DNA from: Bacillota bacterium
GTDB taxonomy: Bacteria > Bacillota > Sulfobacillia > JAJYWN01 > JAJZPE01
Direction: 5' to 3'
DNA: 44,686 nt
NCBI GenBank assembly: GCA_021811325.1
Contig: JAJZPE010000007.1
Location: 1 to 44,686, forward strand
The first letter of the stretch is position 1; every line of letters begins with the position of its first letter. The position numbers were made by a program, and so were the translations under genes. Of this stretch, positions 1,877 through 35,010 are shown in pieces. A model generated the notes under the pieces. That model did no database searches and had not been told where the DNA came from. It was given only the letters and a program-made list of their open reading frames with translations.

Positions 1877-2710
1877 TCAGCGCCGGCGCTTGCCCTTCGG
1901 GACGTACATCCGGCCGGCCGGGAGGCCGAGCTTCTCGGCCATCTCCCGGCAGTAGTCGATCTCGCCGACGGTGCCGCGGGTGTGCCCGTCGCTGCCGAAC
2001 GAGAAAGTCGCCCCGAGTTCGAGGGCCCGCTGCAGGAAGTCTTCCCGAGGCACCCGCCACAGGCCGCTGATCTCGATCGCCACGCCCCGGTCGACGGCGA
2101 GCTTGATGAAGGCCTCGGCCCAGTCGGGCGGGACCTCCCGCTCGACCACGGGGAGAAGGGTGCAGTGGCCGAGGATGGCGATGGGCCAGTCGTCGAGGCC
2201 TTTCTTGAAGGCGGCCAGGGCGGCGTCGAGGAAGCGGACGCGGTCGGCGAAAGCCGCCGGCGGCTCGTACCTGTCCTGCAGGCCCAGCCGGTGGTTGAAG
2301 TACTCGATGAACGGGTGGTACCGGCCGTCCAGCTCCAGCCCGTGAAGGCTGCCGATGAGGTAGTCGGCCTGCTCGAGGACGCGGAGGGGCCAGGTCAGGG
2401 GCACCCCCAGGTCGATCTCGAGCCCGCGGAACAACCCGTTGCGGTCGGCGGCCGCGTAGTAGATGGCGAAATCGGCGGCCGACCGGAGCTGTCCGTGGAG
2501 CAGGGCGTGGTCGGCCAGTCCGACCGCGAGGCCCTTGGCCTTGCCGACGGCGGCCACGCCGTCCGGGGCCAACTGGCCGTCGGAGAAGGTCGAGTGGTTG
2601 TGCAGGTCGTAGGCGAACGGGGATGGCTCCGGGGGCTTCTCCTTGGGCGGCGCCCCGCCCTCGGCCCTGGTCTCGCCCGCGCCTGCGGCCGCGGCTGCGG
2701 CCGCGGTCAT
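1877..2710 (-). CDS. PHP-domain phosphoesterase (histidinol-phosphatase-like)
   Basis: Probable metal-dependent hydrolase of the PHP superfamily, 277 residues, cytoplasmic. The first metal motif DLHNHSTFSDG sits at 35-45 (His37, His39, Asp44). Later candidate ligands are in GLADHA, SLHG, ILGHC and, near the C-terminus, FGSDGHT. The first 30 residues are low-complexity (Ala run, then Pro/Glu/Lys). The substrate cannot be read: relatives include histidinol phosphatase HisK and 3',5'-nucleoside-bisphosphate phosphatases. The ATG overlaps the serS stop codon (ATGA) and its AGGAGG lies inside the serS end, so it is translationally coupled to serS. A longer in-frame extension back to 2980 would lie within serS and is rejected. 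Confidence 0.85.
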   Translation of the reverse strand: MTAAAAAAAGAGETRAEGGAPPKEKPPEPSPFAYDLHNHSTFSDGQLAPDGVAAVGKAKGLAVGLADHALLHGQLRSAADFAIYYAAADRNGLFRGLEIDLGVPLTWPLRVLEQADYLIGSLHGLELDGRYHPFIEYFNHRLGLQDRYEPPAAFADRVRFLDAALAAFKKGLDDWPIAILGHCTLLPVVEREVPPDWAEAFIKLAVDRGVAIEISGLWRVPREDFLQRALELGATFSFGSDGHTRGTVGEIDYCREMAEKLGLPAGRMYVPKGKRRR

Positions 2711-3987
2711 GACCTGGCCTCCTTGGGCCGGATGACTTCGAGCCCGCCCATGTACGGCCGGAGAGCCTCGGGAATGACCACGCTGCCATCGGCCTGCTGG
2801 TAGTTCTCGAGGATCGGGATGAGGATGCGCGGGCTGGCCAGGGCCGTGTTGTTCAGGGTATGGCCGTAGCGGACCTTGCCTTCCTTGTCGCGATAACGGA
2901 TCATCGACCGCCGCGCCTGGAACTCGTGGATGGTCGAGCAGGAATGGGTCTCGCCGTAGCCGTCGCGGCCCGGCATCCACGTCTCGATGTCGTGCTTGCG
3001 CACCTGGGGCCGTCCGAGGTCGCCGCCGCAGACGTAGACGACGCGGTACGGCAGGCCCAGGGCCTGGACCAGTTCCTCCGAGTTGCTCAGCAGGAAGTCG
3101 TGTTGGCGCCGGGACTCCTCGACGTCGTTGCGGCAGATGATGACCTGCTCGATCTTGTAGAACTGGTGGACGCGGTAGAGGCCGCGGGTGTCCTTGCCGG
3201 CGGCCCCCGCCTCCCGGCGGAAGCAGGCCGAGAACCCGGCGTAGTGCTTGGGCAGCTCAGCCTGGTCGAGGATCTCCCCGGCGTGGTAGGCGACCAGCGA
3301 GACCTCGGCCGTGCCGATCAGGTCCTGCCCGGTGTCGACGGTATAGACGCTGTCCTCGCCGCCCGGGAGGAAGCCGCCGCCGACCATCGCTTCCGGTTTC
3401 ACCAGCATCGGCACGTTCATCGGGACGAAGCCCTTCTTCACCAGGTGGTCCATGGCCCAGCGCAAGAGGGCCGTCTCGAGGAGCGCCCCTTCGTTCTTCA
3501 GGAAGTAACTGCGGCTGCCCCCGACCCTGGAGCCGCGGGCGAAGTCGATTATGTCGAGCTTCTCGCCAAGGGCGACGTGGTCGAGCGGTTCGAAGTCGAA
3601 CTTCCGGGGCTCACCCCAGCGCTTGACCTCGAGGTTGTCCTTGTCGTCGACCCCGTCGGGGACATCGTCCGCCGGCACGTTCGGGACCTGTAGCATCAGG
3701 GCCTCGAACTCCTTCTCCAGCCGCGCCAGCTCGGGCTCCATCTCCTTGAGCTCCTTGTCGACCTGGCGCATGGCGGCCACGGCGGCCTGCCGTTCCTCGG
3801 CGGCGAGGCCGGGAATCTCCTTGGACCGCCGGTTCTTCTCGGCCCGCAGGTCTTCCACCCGGCGCTGCGTCTCGCGCCGCTGCCGGTCGACCTCGAGAAG
3901 CCCATCGATGTCGGCCTGGAATCGCTTCTTGGCCGCTCCCCGCTTGACCTCCTCCGGATGCTCCCGAATGTAGGCGATGTCCAGCAC
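2707..3987 (-). CDS. serS: Serine--tRNA ligase
   Basis: Charges tRNA-Ser with serine; class II synthetase, 426 residues. The N-terminal MLDIAYIREHPEEV is the usual SerRS start, followed by a long Glu/Arg/Lys-rich antiparallel coiled coil (about 25-105). Motif 2 is seen in GFSACFRREAGA, a further active-site segment in THSCSTIHEFQARR, and motif 3 in the NNTALASPRILIPILENYQ region. I place the start at the GTG at 3987 because GGAGGGG ends about six bases upstream. The in-frame GTG at 3993 directly abuts that site. It follows a serine T-box leader and is the first gene of a serS-PHP-pfkA operon. Confidence 0.96.
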   Translation of the reverse strand: MLDIAYIREHPEEVKRGAAKKRFQADIDGLLEVDRQRRETQRRVEDLRAEKNRRSKEIPGLAAEERQAAVAAMRQVDKELKEMEPELARLEKEFEALMLQVPNVPADDVPDGVDDKDNLEVKRWGEPRKFDFEPLDHVALGEKLDIIDFARGSRVGGSRSYFLKNEGALLETALLRWAMDHLVKKGFVPMNVPMLVKPEAMVGGGFLPGGEDSVYTVDTGQDLIGTAEVSLVAYHAGEILDQAELPKHYAGFSACFRREAGAAGKDTRGLYRVHQFYKIEQVIICRNDVEESRRQHDFLLSNSEELVQALGLPYRVVYVCGGDLGRPQVRKHDIETWMPGRDGYGETHSCSTIHEFQARRSMIRYRDKEGKVRYGHTLNNTALASPRILIPILENYQQADGSVVIPEALRPYMGGLEVIRPKEARS

Positions 3988-28012: not shown

Positions 28013-28227
28013 GGGCAACCTCCTTGCGGATTGGATTGGCAGCGATTGGCTTGCCTCGCGGCTCATTCCTGGCTCACGTGGTCGCGATTCCTAACTTGTT
28101 CGTCAGGCAAACCAATCTTCCTGCCGCCAAGCGGGCCCATGGGAGCCAGGTGGCTTCGGACCCGTTGTCCCGCGGAATAAGCCCCGGAAATCCGGTGCAC
28201 CCTGGGAACGCAGAGGGGGTGGGCTTC
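28013..28227. other. Divergent intergenic region
   Basis: A 215-base gap between the minus-strand reductase and the plus-strand DUF255 gene. It should hold promoters in both directions. I see only weak -35-like TTGCCT/TTGGTT on the minus strand near 28105-28116, no clear -10, and no hairpin. Confidence 0.3.
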
Positions 28228-30189
28228 TTGTCTGATACGGTGCAGCCGTTCCGCTTCTCCCCGCGGCCCAACCGGGCCCACGAGATCCGCTGGCGCGAGT
28301 GGGGCCGCGAGGCCTTCGATGAAGCCAAGAAGGTCGACCGCCCGGTCCTCCTATCCATTTCTGGCGTCTGGTGTCACTGGTGTCACGTCATGGACGAGAC
28401 GACCTACTCCGACCCCGAGGTCATCCAGCTCATCAACGGGAACTTCGTCCCGGTGCGGGTCGACACCGACCAGCGCCCCGACGTCAACGAGCGCTACAAC
28501 CTCGGGGGCTGGCCGACGACGGCCCTCCTGAGCCCCGACGGTGAGCTGATGGGCGGCAGCACCTACATCCCGCCCGACCAGATGGTCCCGTGGCTGGAGG
28601 GGGTGGTCGAGGCCTGGCGAGCCGAGGGCGACGACATCGGCCGCCGCCTGGCCGAACGCCGGCGCTCGGTGGAGCGGACCCCGGTCACGGCCCAGCCGGG
28701 CCGGCTGGACGCGGACATCTACCGTCACGTCCTCCGGTCCCTGCGCGACTCCTTCGACGACCGCCACGCCGGCTTCGGGCGGGGCACCAAGTTCCCCCTG
28801 GTCGAGGCCATCGAGCTGGCCATGGACGGCTATGTGACGACCCGCGACGACGACCTCCGGAACATCTTCGCCCGGACCATCGAGGCGATGGTCGACGGGG
28901 GCCTGTACGACCACGTCGAGGGCGGCTTCTTCCGTTACTCGACGACCCGCGACTGGAGCGTCCCGCACTATGAGAAGATGCTTGAGGACAACGCCGCCCT
29001 CTTGGGGGTGCTCCTCCAGGCGGTCCGCGTCGTCGGCACCCCCAAGCTCTACGGGGCAGCCGAGGACGTCGTCCGCTTTCTGAGCGAGGTCCTCTATCAG
29101 CCGCCGTATGGTGTCTACGCTGGGACGCAGGACGCCGACGAGGAGTATTATCGACTCGACATAAAAGAGCGCCGCCAGCGCAAGGCCCCCGCCATCGACC
29201 GTAACGTCTACGTCAACTGGAATGCCGATCTGGTCCGGGTGCTGGTCGAGGCCTCGTGGGTCCTCGACGTCGTCGACCACCTTCAGAGGGCCATCGCGGT
29301 GATGGACTTTCTCCTCGACCATGCCTACGTCGAGGATCGCGGGATGGCCCATTACCTGCCCGCGCCGCCGACGGCCGTCGTCCGCAACGACGCGCCAAGT
29401 GAACAAGGGGCCTCCCTGCCGGTCGCGCCGAGCGGCCCGGGGATGTGGAAACCGCAACTGTGGGGCCTTCTGGCCGACCAGGTCTCGTCCGGGCGGGCCC
29501 TCGTCCGCCTGTACCACAGCACCGGTGACGACCGCTGGCTGAAGACGGCCGAGCGCTTGGCGGACTTCATCCTGAAGGACTTCCGGGCCCCGGACGGCGG
29601 CTTCCGCGACCTGCGACCCGACCGCGAGGCCCCCGGCGAACTGGCCCGCCCCAAGGTCGCTCTGGAGGGCAACGCGCGGGCCGCGCGCTTCCTCCTTGAG
29701 CTGGCGGCGACCGTCCTCGACGAAGAGCGGGCCGAACGGTACCGGCGTGAGGCCGTATCCGCCCTCGGCCGCTTCGCCGACACCTACCGCGACTATGGCG
29801 TGATGGCCTCGGGCTACGCCCTGGCCGTCGCCGACGCCCTCCGACCGTGGACGGTCGTGACCATCATCGGCGACCGCCGCGACGCCCGGACGGCCGAGCT
29901 GAAGGACGTGGCCTGGGCGGCCTACCGGCCGCAGACGGTCATCCGGCTCCTCGACCCGGTCGAGAAGGCCGAGGTCACGGAGGCCCTCGGCTTCGGCCGC
30001 GACCCCGACCCGCGGGCCTATGTCTGCGTGGGGACCAAGTGCCTGGCCCCGGTGAGCGAATCCAGCGTCCTCCGGGGCATCCTCGAGAAGGAGGCGGTCC
30101 GGGAAGTGGCCGAAGGTCCGGTGACCAGGCTCACCGGCGCGGCCGACGAAGGCGGCCGGGAAGAGGACTTCGTGCCGCCCGAGGCCTGA
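28228..30189 (+). CDS. DUF255 thioredoxin-domain protein (YyaL/SPATA20 family)
   Basis: Cytoplasmic protein of 653 residues. The N-terminal thioredoxin-like domain begins with RAHEIRWREWGREAFDEAKK and has a CxxC in SGVWCHWCHVMD (about 46-57), followed by NGNFVPVRVDTDQRPDVN and LGGWPTTALLSPDG. The rest is an alpha/alpha-barrel of the glycosidase-like fold found in YyaL proteins (GGFFRYSTTRDWSVPHYEKM, CxxC-free). Biochemical function is not settled in the family. TTG 28228 has GAGGGGGT seven bases upstream; the frame extends to 28024 but the added part lacks similarity. Stands alone on the plus strand. Confidence 0.9.
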   Translation: MSDTVQPFRFSPRPNRAHEIRWREWGREAFDEAKKVDRPVLLSISGVWCHWCHVMDETTYSDPEVIQLINGNFVPVRVDTDQRPDVNERYNLGGWPTTALLSPDGELMGGSTYIPPDQMVPWLEGVVEAWRAEGDDIGRRLAERRRSVERTPVTAQPGRLDADIYRHVLRSLRDSFDDRHAGFGRGTKFPLVEAIELAMDGYVTTRDDDLRNIFARTIEAMVDGGLYDHVEGGFFRYSTTRDWSVPHYEKMLEDNAALLGVLLQAVRVVGTPKLYGAAEDVVRFLSEVLYQPPYGVYAGTQDADEEYYRLDIKERRQRKAPAIDRNVYVNWNADLVRVLVEASWVLDVVDHLQRAIAVMDFLLDHAYVEDRGMAHYLPAPPTAVVRNDAPSEQGASLPVAPSGPGMWKPQLWGLLADQVSSGRALVRLYHSTGDDRWLKTAERLADFILKDFRAPDGGFRDLRPDREAPGELARPKVALEGNARAARFLLELAATVLDEERAERYRREAVSALGRFADTYRDYGVMASGYALAVADALRPWTVVTIIGDRRDARTAELKDVAWAAYRPQTVIRLLDPVEKAEVTEALGFGRDPDPRAYVCVGTKCLAPVSESSVLRGILEKEAVREVAEGPVTRLTGAADEGGREEDFVPPEA

Positions 30190-30206
30190 GGCAGGACTGA
30201 TGGCGC

Positions 30207-30238
30207 AAGAGCCCGGCCGTTGGCGTGGCCGGGCTCTT
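30207..30238. terminator. Terminator between the DUF255 gene and the hypothetical protein
   Basis: Perfect 12-bp stem AAGAGCCCGGCC / GGCCGGGCTCTT with an 8-base loop, between convergent genes. The following T-run is short. Confidence 0.7.
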
Positions 30239-30352
30239 CATCGTCATGGTGACGGGCAGTCGGCGGGTCTAAATCGGCGGCTTTCAGACCACCTCGGCCC
30301 CGACCAGGCCGGCGTAGGCCCGGACGGCCGCGCCCCAAGGCCCGTGTCGAGG

Positions 30353-30814
30353 TCACGCGCCGCCGAGGGCGCGGTCGAAGCGCTCGCGGGCGGCCACGCG
30401 GTGGATGGCCTGCTGGGCCAGGAGCAGCTCGCCGCCCCAGTGCTGCCAGTAAAGACTCTGCCAGGCCCACAGAGCGGCCTCACGGTCGCCGGGCGTGCCG
30501 CGGCGATAGAGCTCCAGCCCATCGACGAAGTCGCGGTAGGCCCCGGCCAGGGCGTCGGCCAACCGCGGGCTGGTTTGCCGCCACCGCTCGTACACCTGCC
30601 GGGAGGCCGCGTGATTGCCCTCGTCCGGCGGGGCGTGCCCGACCTCCTCGCCCTCCGGGAGGGCCAGGAAGGCCGAGTGGGCATCGCTCAGGGCGGCCTG
30701 CAGGTCGTCGAGGGCGCCGCCGCTTTCAGCCAGGGCCACGACCCGCTCGGCGGCCGCCGCGAACCGCTCCAGCGCTTGCTGTTTTGAGGCTCTTAGACCG
30801 TCGTCCATCCGCAC
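30353..30814 (-). CDS. Hypothetical helical protein
   Basis: Soluble, mostly helical protein of about 153 residues with no signal peptide. It is rich in Ala, Glu, Arg and Trp, with an aromatic motif AALWAWQSLYWQHWGGELL near the end. I do not recognise the family. GTG 30814 is preferred because GGAGGG is six bases upstream; the ATG two codons earlier abuts that site. After its TGA (30353-30355) the same frame stays open for 22 codons with coding-like GC-rich third positions, ending at 30284. It is divergent from dat. Confidence 0.6.
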   Translation of the reverse strand: MRMDDGLRASKQQALERFAAAAERVVALAESGGALDDLQAALSDAHSAFLALPEGEEVGHAPPDEGNHAASRQVYERWRQTSPRLADALAGAYRDFVDGLELYRRGTPGDREAALWAWQSLYWQHWGGELLLAQQAIHRVAARERFDRALGGA

Positions 30815-30984
30815 CGCCATCCCTCCGCGTCCGTCGGGCTCAGGGTTGGGCCGCGCCGCCGGTCGTCTGCTGTCGAAACGTCGGAATGGGCAGCAGGAAG
30901 CTTCTGACCTGCGGAGAACCCATATCGAGGCCGGCCGGCACGGTCAGCCGGGTTGCTTTCGACCCAGGGAAAGGAGCCATCATC

Positions 30985-31827
30985 GTGATCGTCTATCTCA
31001 ACGGCAGCTTCATCCCTCACGAACAGGCCGTGGTCCCGGTGGAGGACCGGGCCAACAACTTCGGCGACGGCATCTACGAAGTCGTCTCTTTCGCCGACGG
31101 GTGTCTCTTCGCCTTCGAGGAGCACATGGACCGGCTGCGTTACAGCGCCCGGGAGATTCAGCTCGACCTGCCCGAAGACCCCTCCCGCTACGCCGCCGTG
31201 GCCGAGCGGCTCATGACCGAGAACAGCCTCGCTGGATACGCCTCGCTGTACATGCAGATATCACGCGGCGTCGCCCCGCGCCTGCACGCCTTCCCGGCTC
31301 AGGCCAGGCCGACCGTCTACATCGCGGCCAAGCCGGGCAAGTATGTGCCCGATGAGGACCGCGAAAAGGGCCGCCCGGCGGTCACCCTGCCCGACCTCCG
31401 CTGGGGACGCTGCGATATCAAGAGCCTGAACCTGCTCCCCAACGTCCTCGCCAAGCAGGCGGCGGCCAAGGCCGGGGCGCAGGACGCCATCCTCATCCGC
31501 GACGGGATGGCCATCGAAGGCGCCGCCTCGAACCTCTTCGCCGTCTTCAACGGGACCCTCGTCACTCATCCGAAGGGCCCGCACATCCTTGGGGGCATCA
31601 CCCGCCAGCACATCCTGCGGCTGGCCGAATCGCTGGGCATCCCCTGCCTCGAGGAGCCCATCTCAGCCGAGGCCGTCTGGAAGGCCGACGAGCTGTTCTT
31701 TAGCGGGACGATGCTGGAGATAATGCCGATAACCAAGATCGACGGGAAGGTCGCCGGCGGCGGTCGGCGCGGCCCCGTTTCCGCCAGACTCCAGACGGGC
31801 CTGCACCGCGAGATGTGGGGGAAGTAG
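30985..31827 (+). CDS. dat: D-amino-acid aminotransferase
   Basis: PLP enzyme that makes D-glutamate or D-alanine from the matching keto acids for peptidoglycan, cytoplasmic, fold type IV, 280 residues. The catalytic Lys146 lies in RCDIKSLNLLPNVLAKQ. Tyr31 (GDGIYEVV) and the Arg99/His101 pair (RGVAPRLHAFP) match the carboxylate trap that separates D-amino-acid from branched-chain aminotransferases. GTG 30985 has AAAGGAG eight bases upstream. The frame runs back to 30784 but that part overlaps the divergent gene and is rejected. The end (VAGGGRRGPVSARLQTGLHREM) is normal. Confidence 0.93.
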   Translation: MIVYLNGSFIPHEQAVVPVEDRANNFGDGIYEVVSFADGCLFAFEEHMDRLRYSAREIQLDLPEDPSRYAAVAERLMTENSLAGYASLYMQISRGVAPRLHAFPAQARPTVYIAAKPGKYVPDEDREKGRPAVTLPDLRWGRCDIKSLNLLPNVLAKQAAAKAGAQDAILIRDGMAIEGAASNLFAVFNGTLVTHPKGPHILGGITRQHILRLAESLGIPCLEEPISAEAVWKADELFFSGTMLEIMPITKIDGKVAGGGRRGPVSARLQTGLHREMWGK

Positions 31828-31915
31828 CGCCCGCGGGGGCAGATCTCCCGCGCCGCGACCCAGCGAGCCACCGGCCCAGCTCCTGCGTCGCCACGCTCCT
31901 TCCCCGCCGGCCAGG

Positions 31916-32056
31916 TCAGAAGAAGGAGACGGTCAGGCCGCCCTTGCCGGCGTAGGTCCCGATGGTCGAGTCCATGTAGTTGACAATGACCCGCCGGGGC
32001 CGGAACCGCTCGTTGGGCAGGTCGGCTGCGCTGTCGGTGACGATCTTGACGGTCAT
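31916..32056 (-). pseudogene. Internally deleted degV gene (46 codons)
   Basis: A short frame encodes MTVKIVTDSAADLP, the usual N-terminus of DegV fatty-acid-binding proteins. Only a few residues later comes DSTIGTYAGKGGLTVSFF, the usual DegV C-terminus (the 'IGTHxGPGxxGxxF' end). The 230 or so residues that normally lie between are missing, yet the frame is kept and ends with TGA at 31916. A GGGGAAGAG site precedes the ATG. The codon use matches neighbours. I read it as an in-frame internal deletion remnant. Confidence 0.75.
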
Positions 32057-32102
32057 CTCTTCCCCGCCTTTGGCTTCAGACGTTGGTGGGATGAGTCTGG
32101 GA

Positions 32103-33524
32103 TCATTGCTGCGGCGCCGGCTCCAGCTTGGCCACGGCCTCGATGTGGCCGGTCATCGGGAACATGTCGACCGGCTGCACCTCCAGGGTCCGGTAGCCGA
32201 GTTCCCGTAGGCCGGCCAGGTCGCGAGCCAGGGTGGCCGGATTGCAGGAGACGTAGATTATCCGTTTCGGCCGCATCTCGGCCATGGCCCGGAGGACGCG
32301 CGGGTCGCAGCCTTTGCGCGGCGGATCGACGACGATGAGGTCCGGGGCCACGCCTCCCTGCCGCATCTGCGGCAGGACCTTTTCGGCCTCGCCCACCAGG
32401 AACTCGACGTTCTCTATCCGGTTGAGCCGGGCGTTCTTCTTGGCGTCGTTGACCGCCTCGGCCACGGCCTCGACGCCGTAGGCCTTCAGCGCCCGCTGGG
32501 CCAGGAAGAGGGTGATGGCCCCGATGCCCGAGTAGACGTCGATAGCCGTCTCCCGGTAGCTCAGTTCGGCGTACTTGAGCACCTCCCGGTAGAGGATGGC
32601 GGTCTGGTCCGGGTTGGTCTGGTAGAAAGACTGCGGGGATATCTTGAAGCGCAGGTCCTCATAGAGCCCCCCGACGTGGATGGTGTCCTCGATGCTCTCG
32701 AGGCCGGCCAGGAGCCTGGTCTCGGGGCCCATGATGACGTTGGTCCGGGCCGGGTTGATGTTCTGGAAGACCCCCACCACCTGGGGCAGCCGGGTCATGA
32801 GCTCGTCGGCGATCTTCCGGCCCGGCGGGAACTCCCGGGTGGCGGTGACGAAAACCACCATCGCCTGGCCGGTCTTGGCCGCGACGCGGCTGAGGACGTG
32901 ACGAAGGGTCCCGTCGCCGGACTCCTCGGCGTACGGCCGGACGTTGTACTTCTCGGCCAGGATCCGCGCCTCGCGCATGATCCGGTTGTTCGTCTGGTGC
33001 TGGATGAAGCACTCGTCAGCCGGGACGATATCGTGGGTGCCCTTGGCGTAGCAGCCCACGACCAGGCGGCCCTGGGCCGTGCCCACGGGGAACTGCACCT
33101 TGTTGCGGTAGTACCAGGGGTCACGGGCCCCCAAGCAGGGCTTGACCTCGACCCCCTGGAGCTTCCCGAGGCGGGTCACGGCGTCCTCGACAACCTTGGT
33201 CTTCAGCGCCAGCTGGGCTTGGTAGTCGACCTGCTGGAGCTGGCAGCCCCCGCACTGGTAGAAGAGCCTGCAGCGGGGCTGGACCCGGTGCGGCGAGGGC
33301 GAACGGACGAAGGCCAGCTCGCCGCGGGCATAGTTCTTGTGGACCTCTTCGATGCGGACGTCGGCGGTGTCGCCGGGGATGGCGTAGGGGACGAAGACGG
33401 TGAAGTTGCGGAACCGCCCGACCCCCTCGCCGTTGTGGGATAGGCCGGTGATGGGGATGCGGAAGGCCCTCCCTTTGCTCAGCGATATGGACTTGGCGGC
33501 CGCGGCTGTGTCTTTGTCGGTCAT
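32103..33524 (-). CDS. rlmD: 23S rRNA (uracil-C5)-methyltransferase, RlmD/RumA type
   Basis: RNA m5U methyltransferase of 473 residues. The TRAM domain is at 15-75 (ITGLSHNGEGVGR, VPYAIPGD). The 4Fe-4S cysteines are in CRLFYQCGGC (Cys85, 91, 94) and a later DECFIQH. The Rossmann methyltransferase domain shows AIDVYSGIGAITLFLA, the Asp-Pro-Pro motif VVDPPRKGC and the catalytic cysteine in YVSCNPATLARDL. Bacillota often carry RlmCD-type paralogues that modify U747 and/or U1939, so the exact site is open. ATG 33524 with GGGAGG ten bases upstream; the longer frame to 33950 runs antisense through the next gene and is rejected. Confidence 0.92.
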   Translation of the reverse strand: MTDKDTAAAAKSISLSKGRAFRIPITGLSHNGEGVGRFRNFTVFVPYAIPGDTADVRIEEVHKNYARGELAFVRSPSPHRVQPRCRLFYQCGGCQLQQVDYQAQLALKTKVVEDAVTRLGKLQGVEVKPCLGARDPWYYRNKVQFPVGTAQGRLVVGCYAKGTHDIVPADECFIQHQTNNRIMREARILAEKYNVRPYAEESGDGTLRHVLSRVAAKTGQAMVVFVTATREFPPGRKIADELMTRLPQVVGVFQNINPARTNVIMGPETRLLAGLESIEDTIHVGGLYEDLRFKISPQSFYQTNPDQTAILYREVLKYAELSYRETAIDVYSGIGAITLFLAQRALKAYGVEAVAEAVNDAKKNARLNRIENVEFLVGEAEKVLPQMRQGGVAPDLIVVDPPRKGCDPRVLRAMAEMRPKRIIYVSCNPATLARDLAGLRELGYRTLEVQPVDMFPMTGHIEAVAKLEPAPQQ

Positions 33525-33657
33525 GGGCGACGCGCCTCCCTCGATAGGAAGGATTCCCCAAGCGACGGGCTTTTCCTCCCCGGCGCGTTCCGCTCCGGTG
33601 GCTGGAGGAGTCGTCCCCCCCGGGGGCGAAAGCTTCATCAGGGCAGGTGCCTCAGCC

Positions 33658-34185
33658 ATGCGTGACGTCAGTCCGCCGCAAGAAAACACATCCCCATTGG
33701 ACCGGATCCTCCTCTCCTTCCTGGAACAGGTGGACCGCTCGGCCTCGTTCCTCGAGGTTGGCGTCGGCGAAGGCCGCCTGACCAGGCAGGCCGCCCGGCG
33801 TTTCCACCGCGTGGTCGCCGTCGACTGGGATCCGCGCAGCCTGATCACGACCCGACCCCGGGTCGGCGGCCAGGCCGTCTCCCTGTTGATGATGGACGCC
33901 CACCGGTTGGATTTCCCCGACCAGCTCTTCGACGTCGTCGCCGAATTCAACGCCCTCGGTCACTTCGCGGACCCCGGCCGGGTCGTCGCGGAGATGATCC
34001 GGGTGATGCGTCCCAACGGAGTTCTGCTCTTCCTGGCCTCCTGGAAGTCAGAGGTGCTCATCATGGAGGCCGGATGGCTGCAGTCGAGGTTGGCGGCCGC
34101 CGACCTCGACTACCGGCAGGCGCCCAGAGGTCGAGTCAGGGCGTTGGTCGCCAGCCGGCCGGTCGATGTCGGGGAGAGGCCATAG
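33658..34185 (+). CDS. Class I SAM-dependent methyltransferase (small)
   Basis: Protein of 175 residues. Motif I is FLEVGVGEGRLTRQAA (about 25-40), followed by VVAVDWDPRSL (motif II acid), MMDAHRLDFPDQLFDVV and IRVMRPNGVLLFLASW. The substrate cannot be told. ATG 33658 with AGGTG eight bases upstream. It is transcribed divergently from rlmD across a 133-base gap. Confidence 0.85.
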   Translation: MRDVSPPQENTSPLDRILLSFLEQVDRSASFLEVGVGEGRLTRQAARRFHRVVAVDWDPRSLITTRPRVGGQAVSLLMMDAHRLDFPDQLFDVVAEFNALGHFADPGRVVAEMIRVMRPNGVLLFLASWKSEVLIMEAGWLQSRLAAADLDYRQAPRGRVRALVASRPVDVGERP

Positions 34186-34205
34186 GTACTGGCGGATGAT
34201 CTCCC

Positions 34206-34257
34206 CAGTGAAGAACCAGAGCAAGGGCCAAGAGGCCCTTGCTCTGGTTCTTCACTG
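34206..34257. terminator. Very long perfect hairpin (24 bp), bidirectional terminator
   Basis: Left arm 34206-34229 and right arm 34234-34257 are exact reverse complements with loop AAGA. The core is AACCAGAGCAAGGGCC / GGCCCTTGCTCTGGTT, flanked by CAGTGAAG / CTTCACTG. It lies between two convergent genes. The stem is much longer than the other terminators in the window (6-14 bp). Confidence 0.85.
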
Positions 34258-34296
34258 TCCGGTGGCGGACATCGGGCTTCCCACATACGCCCATCT

Positions 34297-35010
34297 TTAC
34301 AGGACAGATGAGGGGGGGTCCCCGGAGATCTGGGGCGGGTACACCGTCGGGAACGGCTCGGCTTCAAAACCCTCGCAGAGGGTTCCGAGTTCTCGGCAGG
34401 TGGGCGGGACGGGGCAGTAACCGTAGGCGGGGATCAGCAGTTGCACCCAGGCCGCGCTCTTGACGATCGCCCGCAGACCGATGGTCACGCAGACTTGCGG
34501 GACCACGCCGGTGGTGATGAACCGGGCGCCCAGACAGGTGAAAGTCACGACTTCGATCTTCCCGAACATGGCGTCCGGGTCGGGCATATAGAGGAGAACG
34601 TCCTTGTGGAAGCAGAGATACGATGACGGGATGCTGATGGTGAACGTGTTGCTCAAGGAATCGGTGAAGACTACGCTGGCCGGCCCACAGATGTCGGCGA
34701 TGACCCGCTGGAGGAGCGGTTGCCCAGGCACGGGCAGTTCCGTGATCGGTCCGGAGACCGCGCCCGGCCCAGCCGTGCAGCTCACGAAGGTGAAGGGCGG
34801 GACGGGGGTCGGGAGGGTGGGGGTGATGACCACGCCGGTCGCGGTGAAGTTGACGCAGTACTCCGCACATTCCACGTTGGAGCAGGAGTCGAAGATCTTC
34901 TCCACCTGGATGCAGACGATCTCGACGGGCGGCGGAATAACGTTTCCGGCCGTGATCGGGCCCGCGGTGATCTGCTGGCCGCCGCTTACCGATTGCATCA
35001 GCTCTGCCAT
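34297..35010 (-). CDS. Cys-rich protein, possible spore coat component
   Basis: Protein of 237 residues with no signal peptide, about 12 cysteines and many beta-type Val/Thr/Pro stretches. The N-terminal part has CIQVEKIFDSCSNVEC, resembling 'V-(E/D)-K-(V/I)-(Y/F)-D-S-C' proteins I recall from spore-forming clostridia. Their role is mostly not established. An excellent AAGGAGGTG site lies seven bases before the ATG. A CATATTCT box (35091-35098 on the minus strand) fits the sporulation sigma -10 pattern CATAnnnT. It is a single-gene unit. The coat assignment is inference from composition and promoter. Confidence 0.6.
   Translation of the reverse strand: MAELMQSVSGGQQITAGPITAGNVIPPPVEIVCIQVEKIFDSCSNVECAEYCVNFTATGVVITPTLPTPVPPFTFVSCTAGPGAVSGPITELPVPGQPLLQRVIADICGPASVVFTDSLSNTFTISIPSSYLCFHKDVLLYMPDPDAMFGKIEVVTFTCLGARFITTGVVPQVCVTIGLRAIVKSAAWVQLLIPAYGYCPVPPTCRELGTLCEGFEAEPFPTVYPPQISGDPPSSVL

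Follow-up and report, generated by a model that had tools for sequence, protein, structure and literature searches.

A 46-codon remnant of degV, very probably left by an internal in-frame deletion, between a methyltransferase and an aminotransferase gene in a Bacillota genome

The window, which is the whole 44,686-nucleotide stretch of DNA analysed here, contains at positions 31916–32056 a minus-strand frame of 46 codons that runs from ATG to TGA (32056 down to 31916, with the stop at 31916–31918), and the plus-strand reading of the same positions gives an unrelated peptide. The frame lies between two intact genes. A class-IV aminotransferase gene (30988–31827, plus strand) is convergent with it, and just upstream on the same strand is a TRAM and uracil-5-methyltransferase gene (32103–33617, minus strand; the coordinates are those of the part used, with a provisional start codon), which we take to be of the RumA/RlmD type. 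No tRNA and no Rfam family were detected within the window, and no plasmid match to the spacer was obtained; on these grounds the site was judged to hold neither a mobile element nor an RNA feature. Further along, an intergenic inverted repeat at 34206–34257 has two perfectly matching arms of 24 nt around a loop of 4 nt and is probably a hairpin of the terminator or repeat type. The segment 34327–34935, within a 237-aa frame at 34297–35010, matches two adjacent segments of locus L080 in a genome of the same genus (2590–3204 and 1551–2171), indicating that this stretch is duplicated in the congener.

The 46-codon frame is the remnant of a gene of the DegV fatty-acid-binding type from which the middle has been deleted in frame. 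The Pfam DegV profile (PF02645) matches it in two stretches with an E value of 5.7e-4 and 19.7 bits, and NCBIfam TIGR00762 likewise in two stretches with an E value of 1.3e-4 and 21.3 bits, the best of which aligns frame residues 16–45 with positions 246–275 of the 276 in the profile. Only the two ends match and both scores are under the curated cut-offs (27 bits for Pfam DegV and 99.7 bits for TIGR00762), as expected for a fragment. A profile of our own, built from 11 DegV proteins of the window's order and 281 positions long, matches the remnant at positions 2–19 and 248–278, in the correct order and in one frame, with an E value of 1.2e-6 among 1027 frames. The similarity of both ends to DegV that an earlier note on this DNA had claimed is thus found with all three profiles, and by BLASTP to a full-length DegV of the same family, with the minus strand as the coding strand. 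Chance resemblance is ruled out by the two independent profile libraries, our own profile and a syntenic full-length gene.

That gene belongs to a genome (G002) of a sister genus in the same family and encodes a protein of 278 residues. The N-terminal arm of the remnant (codons 1–16, 32009–32056, minus strand) corresponds in BLASTP to residues 1–16 of this protein with 12 of 16 identical (75%), and the C-terminal arm (codons 16–45, 31922–32011, minus strand) to residues 249–278 with 20 of 30 identical (67%), followed by one extra F (Phe) codon before the stop. The deletion junction is located at 32009–32023 on the minus strand, after the Asp codon and before the Glu codon of D-L-P-N-E, the counterparts of which in G002 are DLPRE and DRLME. 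Asp and Glu are common to both arms and in register, and the loss relative to G002 is therefore 233 codons (699 bp) whatever the exact break. In blastn against G002 the arm pieces overlap at 32015–32024, where there is a jump of about 690 bp with colinear flanks. The missing middle is absent elsewhere in the window's genome (G000) when searched at E values up to 10, and no further degV piece was found there. Arms that are colinear with an intact gene, together with a middle that is gone from the genome, follow the pattern of an internal deletion.

A region upstream of the remnant (32062–32087, minus strand) is also common to the full-length gene of G002, with agreement at 23 of 26 positions and an alignment score reached by 0 of 1000 shuffles. 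The ATG is preceded by the G-rich stretch AAGGCGGGGAAGAG, and its core AAGGCGGGG is found upstream of the G002 gene as well. The ribosome site claimed in the earlier note amounts to no more than this G-rich stretch.

The closest relatives compared were one congener (G001) and one other family member (G002). In the latter an intact orthologue of 278 codons is present at the same site (C173:41193–42026), with a RumA/RlmD-type methyltransferase and a class-IV aminotransferase as neighbours in the same orientations as in the window. A full-length degV at this site, which the earlier note had proposed to look for in close relatives, is accordingly present in another genus of the family and not in the congener. 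Between degV and the methyltransferase gene G002 also has a frame of 296 codons with a lipoprotein-like start as judged by eye (L053:2596–3486), for which the corresponding intervals of the window and of G001 leave no space. In the congener the flanking genes are separated by 124 bp with a hairpin that by eye resembles a terminator, and no degV match was found at the site, so the window is not alone in lacking degV there. That the congener carries the same remnant was considered and rejected, as the similarity of its spacer to the spacer plus remnant of the window is no better than that of shuffles, 845 of 1000 of which reach the score. The G001 spacer does show some resemblance to the degV region of G002, flanks included, at a score that 2 of 300 shuffles attain; this may come from the terminator-like hairpin that both carry beside the aminotransferase gene.

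Two intact degV genes are located elsewhere in the window's genome, on contigs C114 and C54, and the C114 copy (L001:1–3828) sits in a fatty-acid synthesis cluster with FabH-, FabD- and FabG-like frames recognized by eye. A search with the 46-residue frame through 154 genomes of the class, the window's own included, returned two hits only, the window's own frame and the full-length gene of G002, and a mini-frame like the remnant is found in none of the 153 other genomes. When the full-length G002 DegV is the query, matches at E values up to 1e-48 occur in 24 of the 154 genomes, and those other than G002 itself show 35–43% identity, so that orthology of this particular degV is not established beyond the family. 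No DegV match lies within up to 4 kb of the related methyltransferase at 80 genome loci, the congener locus L080 included, and the three positive controls of this search (L053, L001 and L160) were all found. In a genome of the same order (G003) the methyltransferase and aminotransferase genes are on separate contigs. Among these loci and G003, the arrangement of degV with the methyltransferase gene is seen only in the window's family.

Over 45 codons (135 bases) the arms differ from G002 at 24 positions, 10, 5 and 9 of them in codon positions 1, 2 and 3 respectively, and the codon changes are 6 silent and 14 amino-acid-changing. Four gene pairs between G000 and G002 served as controls. The arms have 0.20 third-position differences per codon against 0.36–0.44 in the controls, indicating that for most of the period after the G000–G002 split they were probably still normal coding sequence. 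The third-position share of the differences is 9/24 in the arms and 0.49–0.62 in the controls, on few sites, and one-sided Fisher tests against the four controls give p values of 0.02, 0.14, 0.02 and 0.19, two of the four thus not being significant. Such a low share would fit a short period without constraint and leans towards relaxed selection, although the counts are small and prove little. In the C-terminal arm by itself, 10 of the 30 codons show amino-acid-changing differences and 2 show silent ones, and windows as extreme as this make up 4 of 1217 in the four control pairs, a small-count result that hints at relaxed selection.

Very probably, a real and fairly recent internal deletion of degV has left a non-functional remnant at this site, which would be an ordinary gene loss. 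The ancestor would have carried a third degV, located downstream of the gene for the RNA methyltransferase and probably cotranscribed with it. About 700 bp would then have been lost by an illegitimate deletion, with endpoints sharing at most a few bases, that took out codons from about 16 to about 248 and joined the two ends in frame. The loss may have been tolerable with two other intact DegV proteins in the genome. We infer that the deletion was a single event and recent relative to the G000–G002 split. The 46-residue product, if made, should be devoid of DegV function, since most of the protein is absent and neither fatty acid binding nor use by FakA is to be expected. The very recent deletion suggested earlier holds if recent is taken to mean late in the time since the two genera diverged, as judged by the low third-position divergence of the arms against the controls. 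The junction is seen in one assembly, a draft of 248 contigs, and is in neither G001 nor G002.

The organism might still have a full-length degV of which the assembler skipped the middle, or the deletion might be carried by a minority strain only, and the fragmented draft with 3.64% contamination (a tool figure) leaves some room for this; we regard it as unlikely. The flanks are colinear with G001 over 28211–34935, the degV site excepted, and none of the other contigs of G000 carries the skipped middle. The longest exact word common to the two breakpoint regions is 7 bp, too short for the usual assembly collapse, in a comparison that takes the G002 gene as a stand-in for the ancestral gene of the window. 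A chimeric contig is ruled out by blastn colinearity on both sides with G001 (L080/L052) and G002 (L053). With colinear flanks and no shared word above 7 bp there is no sign of a chimera or of a repeat collapse, and the assembly collapse raised by the earlier note finds no backing.

It is very unlikely that the fused ends form a small peptide that has a function and is maintained by selection. Start, stop, frame and upstream region do survive, and the third-position divergence of the arms from G002 is not above that of genes. However, an internal deletion always keeps the start and the stop and in one case of three keeps the frame, so nothing about selection follows from this neatness, which had been called unusual for random decay. 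In 45 codons there are 6 silent and 14 amino-acid-changing differences, which gives no excess of silent ones, and AlphaFold2 run on the single sequence of the 46-residue product predicts its structure with low confidence (mean pLDDT 54.3, pTM 0.24). No such frame is present in the congener or in the other class genomes, where the sole match is the full-length G002 gene, and the retained micro-protein once suggested thus gains no support. Even less probable is a short peptide that is made and retained because it acts, for instance, with or against the two remaining DegV proteins, as their partner or competitor.

A gene finder would miss the remnant left by the deletion or call it a small hypothetical protein. 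It records that one of three degV copies has recently been lost, and is a tidy case of an in-frame deletion mimicking a micro-protein, with little import beyond annotation. FakB, described as the fatty-acid-binding partner of fatty acid kinase, belongs to the DegV/FakB family (PMC9136124). Compared with this family (PF02645, TIGR00762), the ends of the remnant align in the expected order, each at its proper terminus, and an intact gene is present at the same site in G002, but 233 of the 278 codons are missing and both curated cut-offs are missed. The remnant is not a new kind of protein. It resembles bacterial pseudogenes and gene remnants (surveyed in PMC522871) in being a truncated copy of a known gene that stands intact at this place in a relative, and in that the genome still has the family elsewhere, and it differs from them in that its frame happens to be kept, so that it resembles a small gene.
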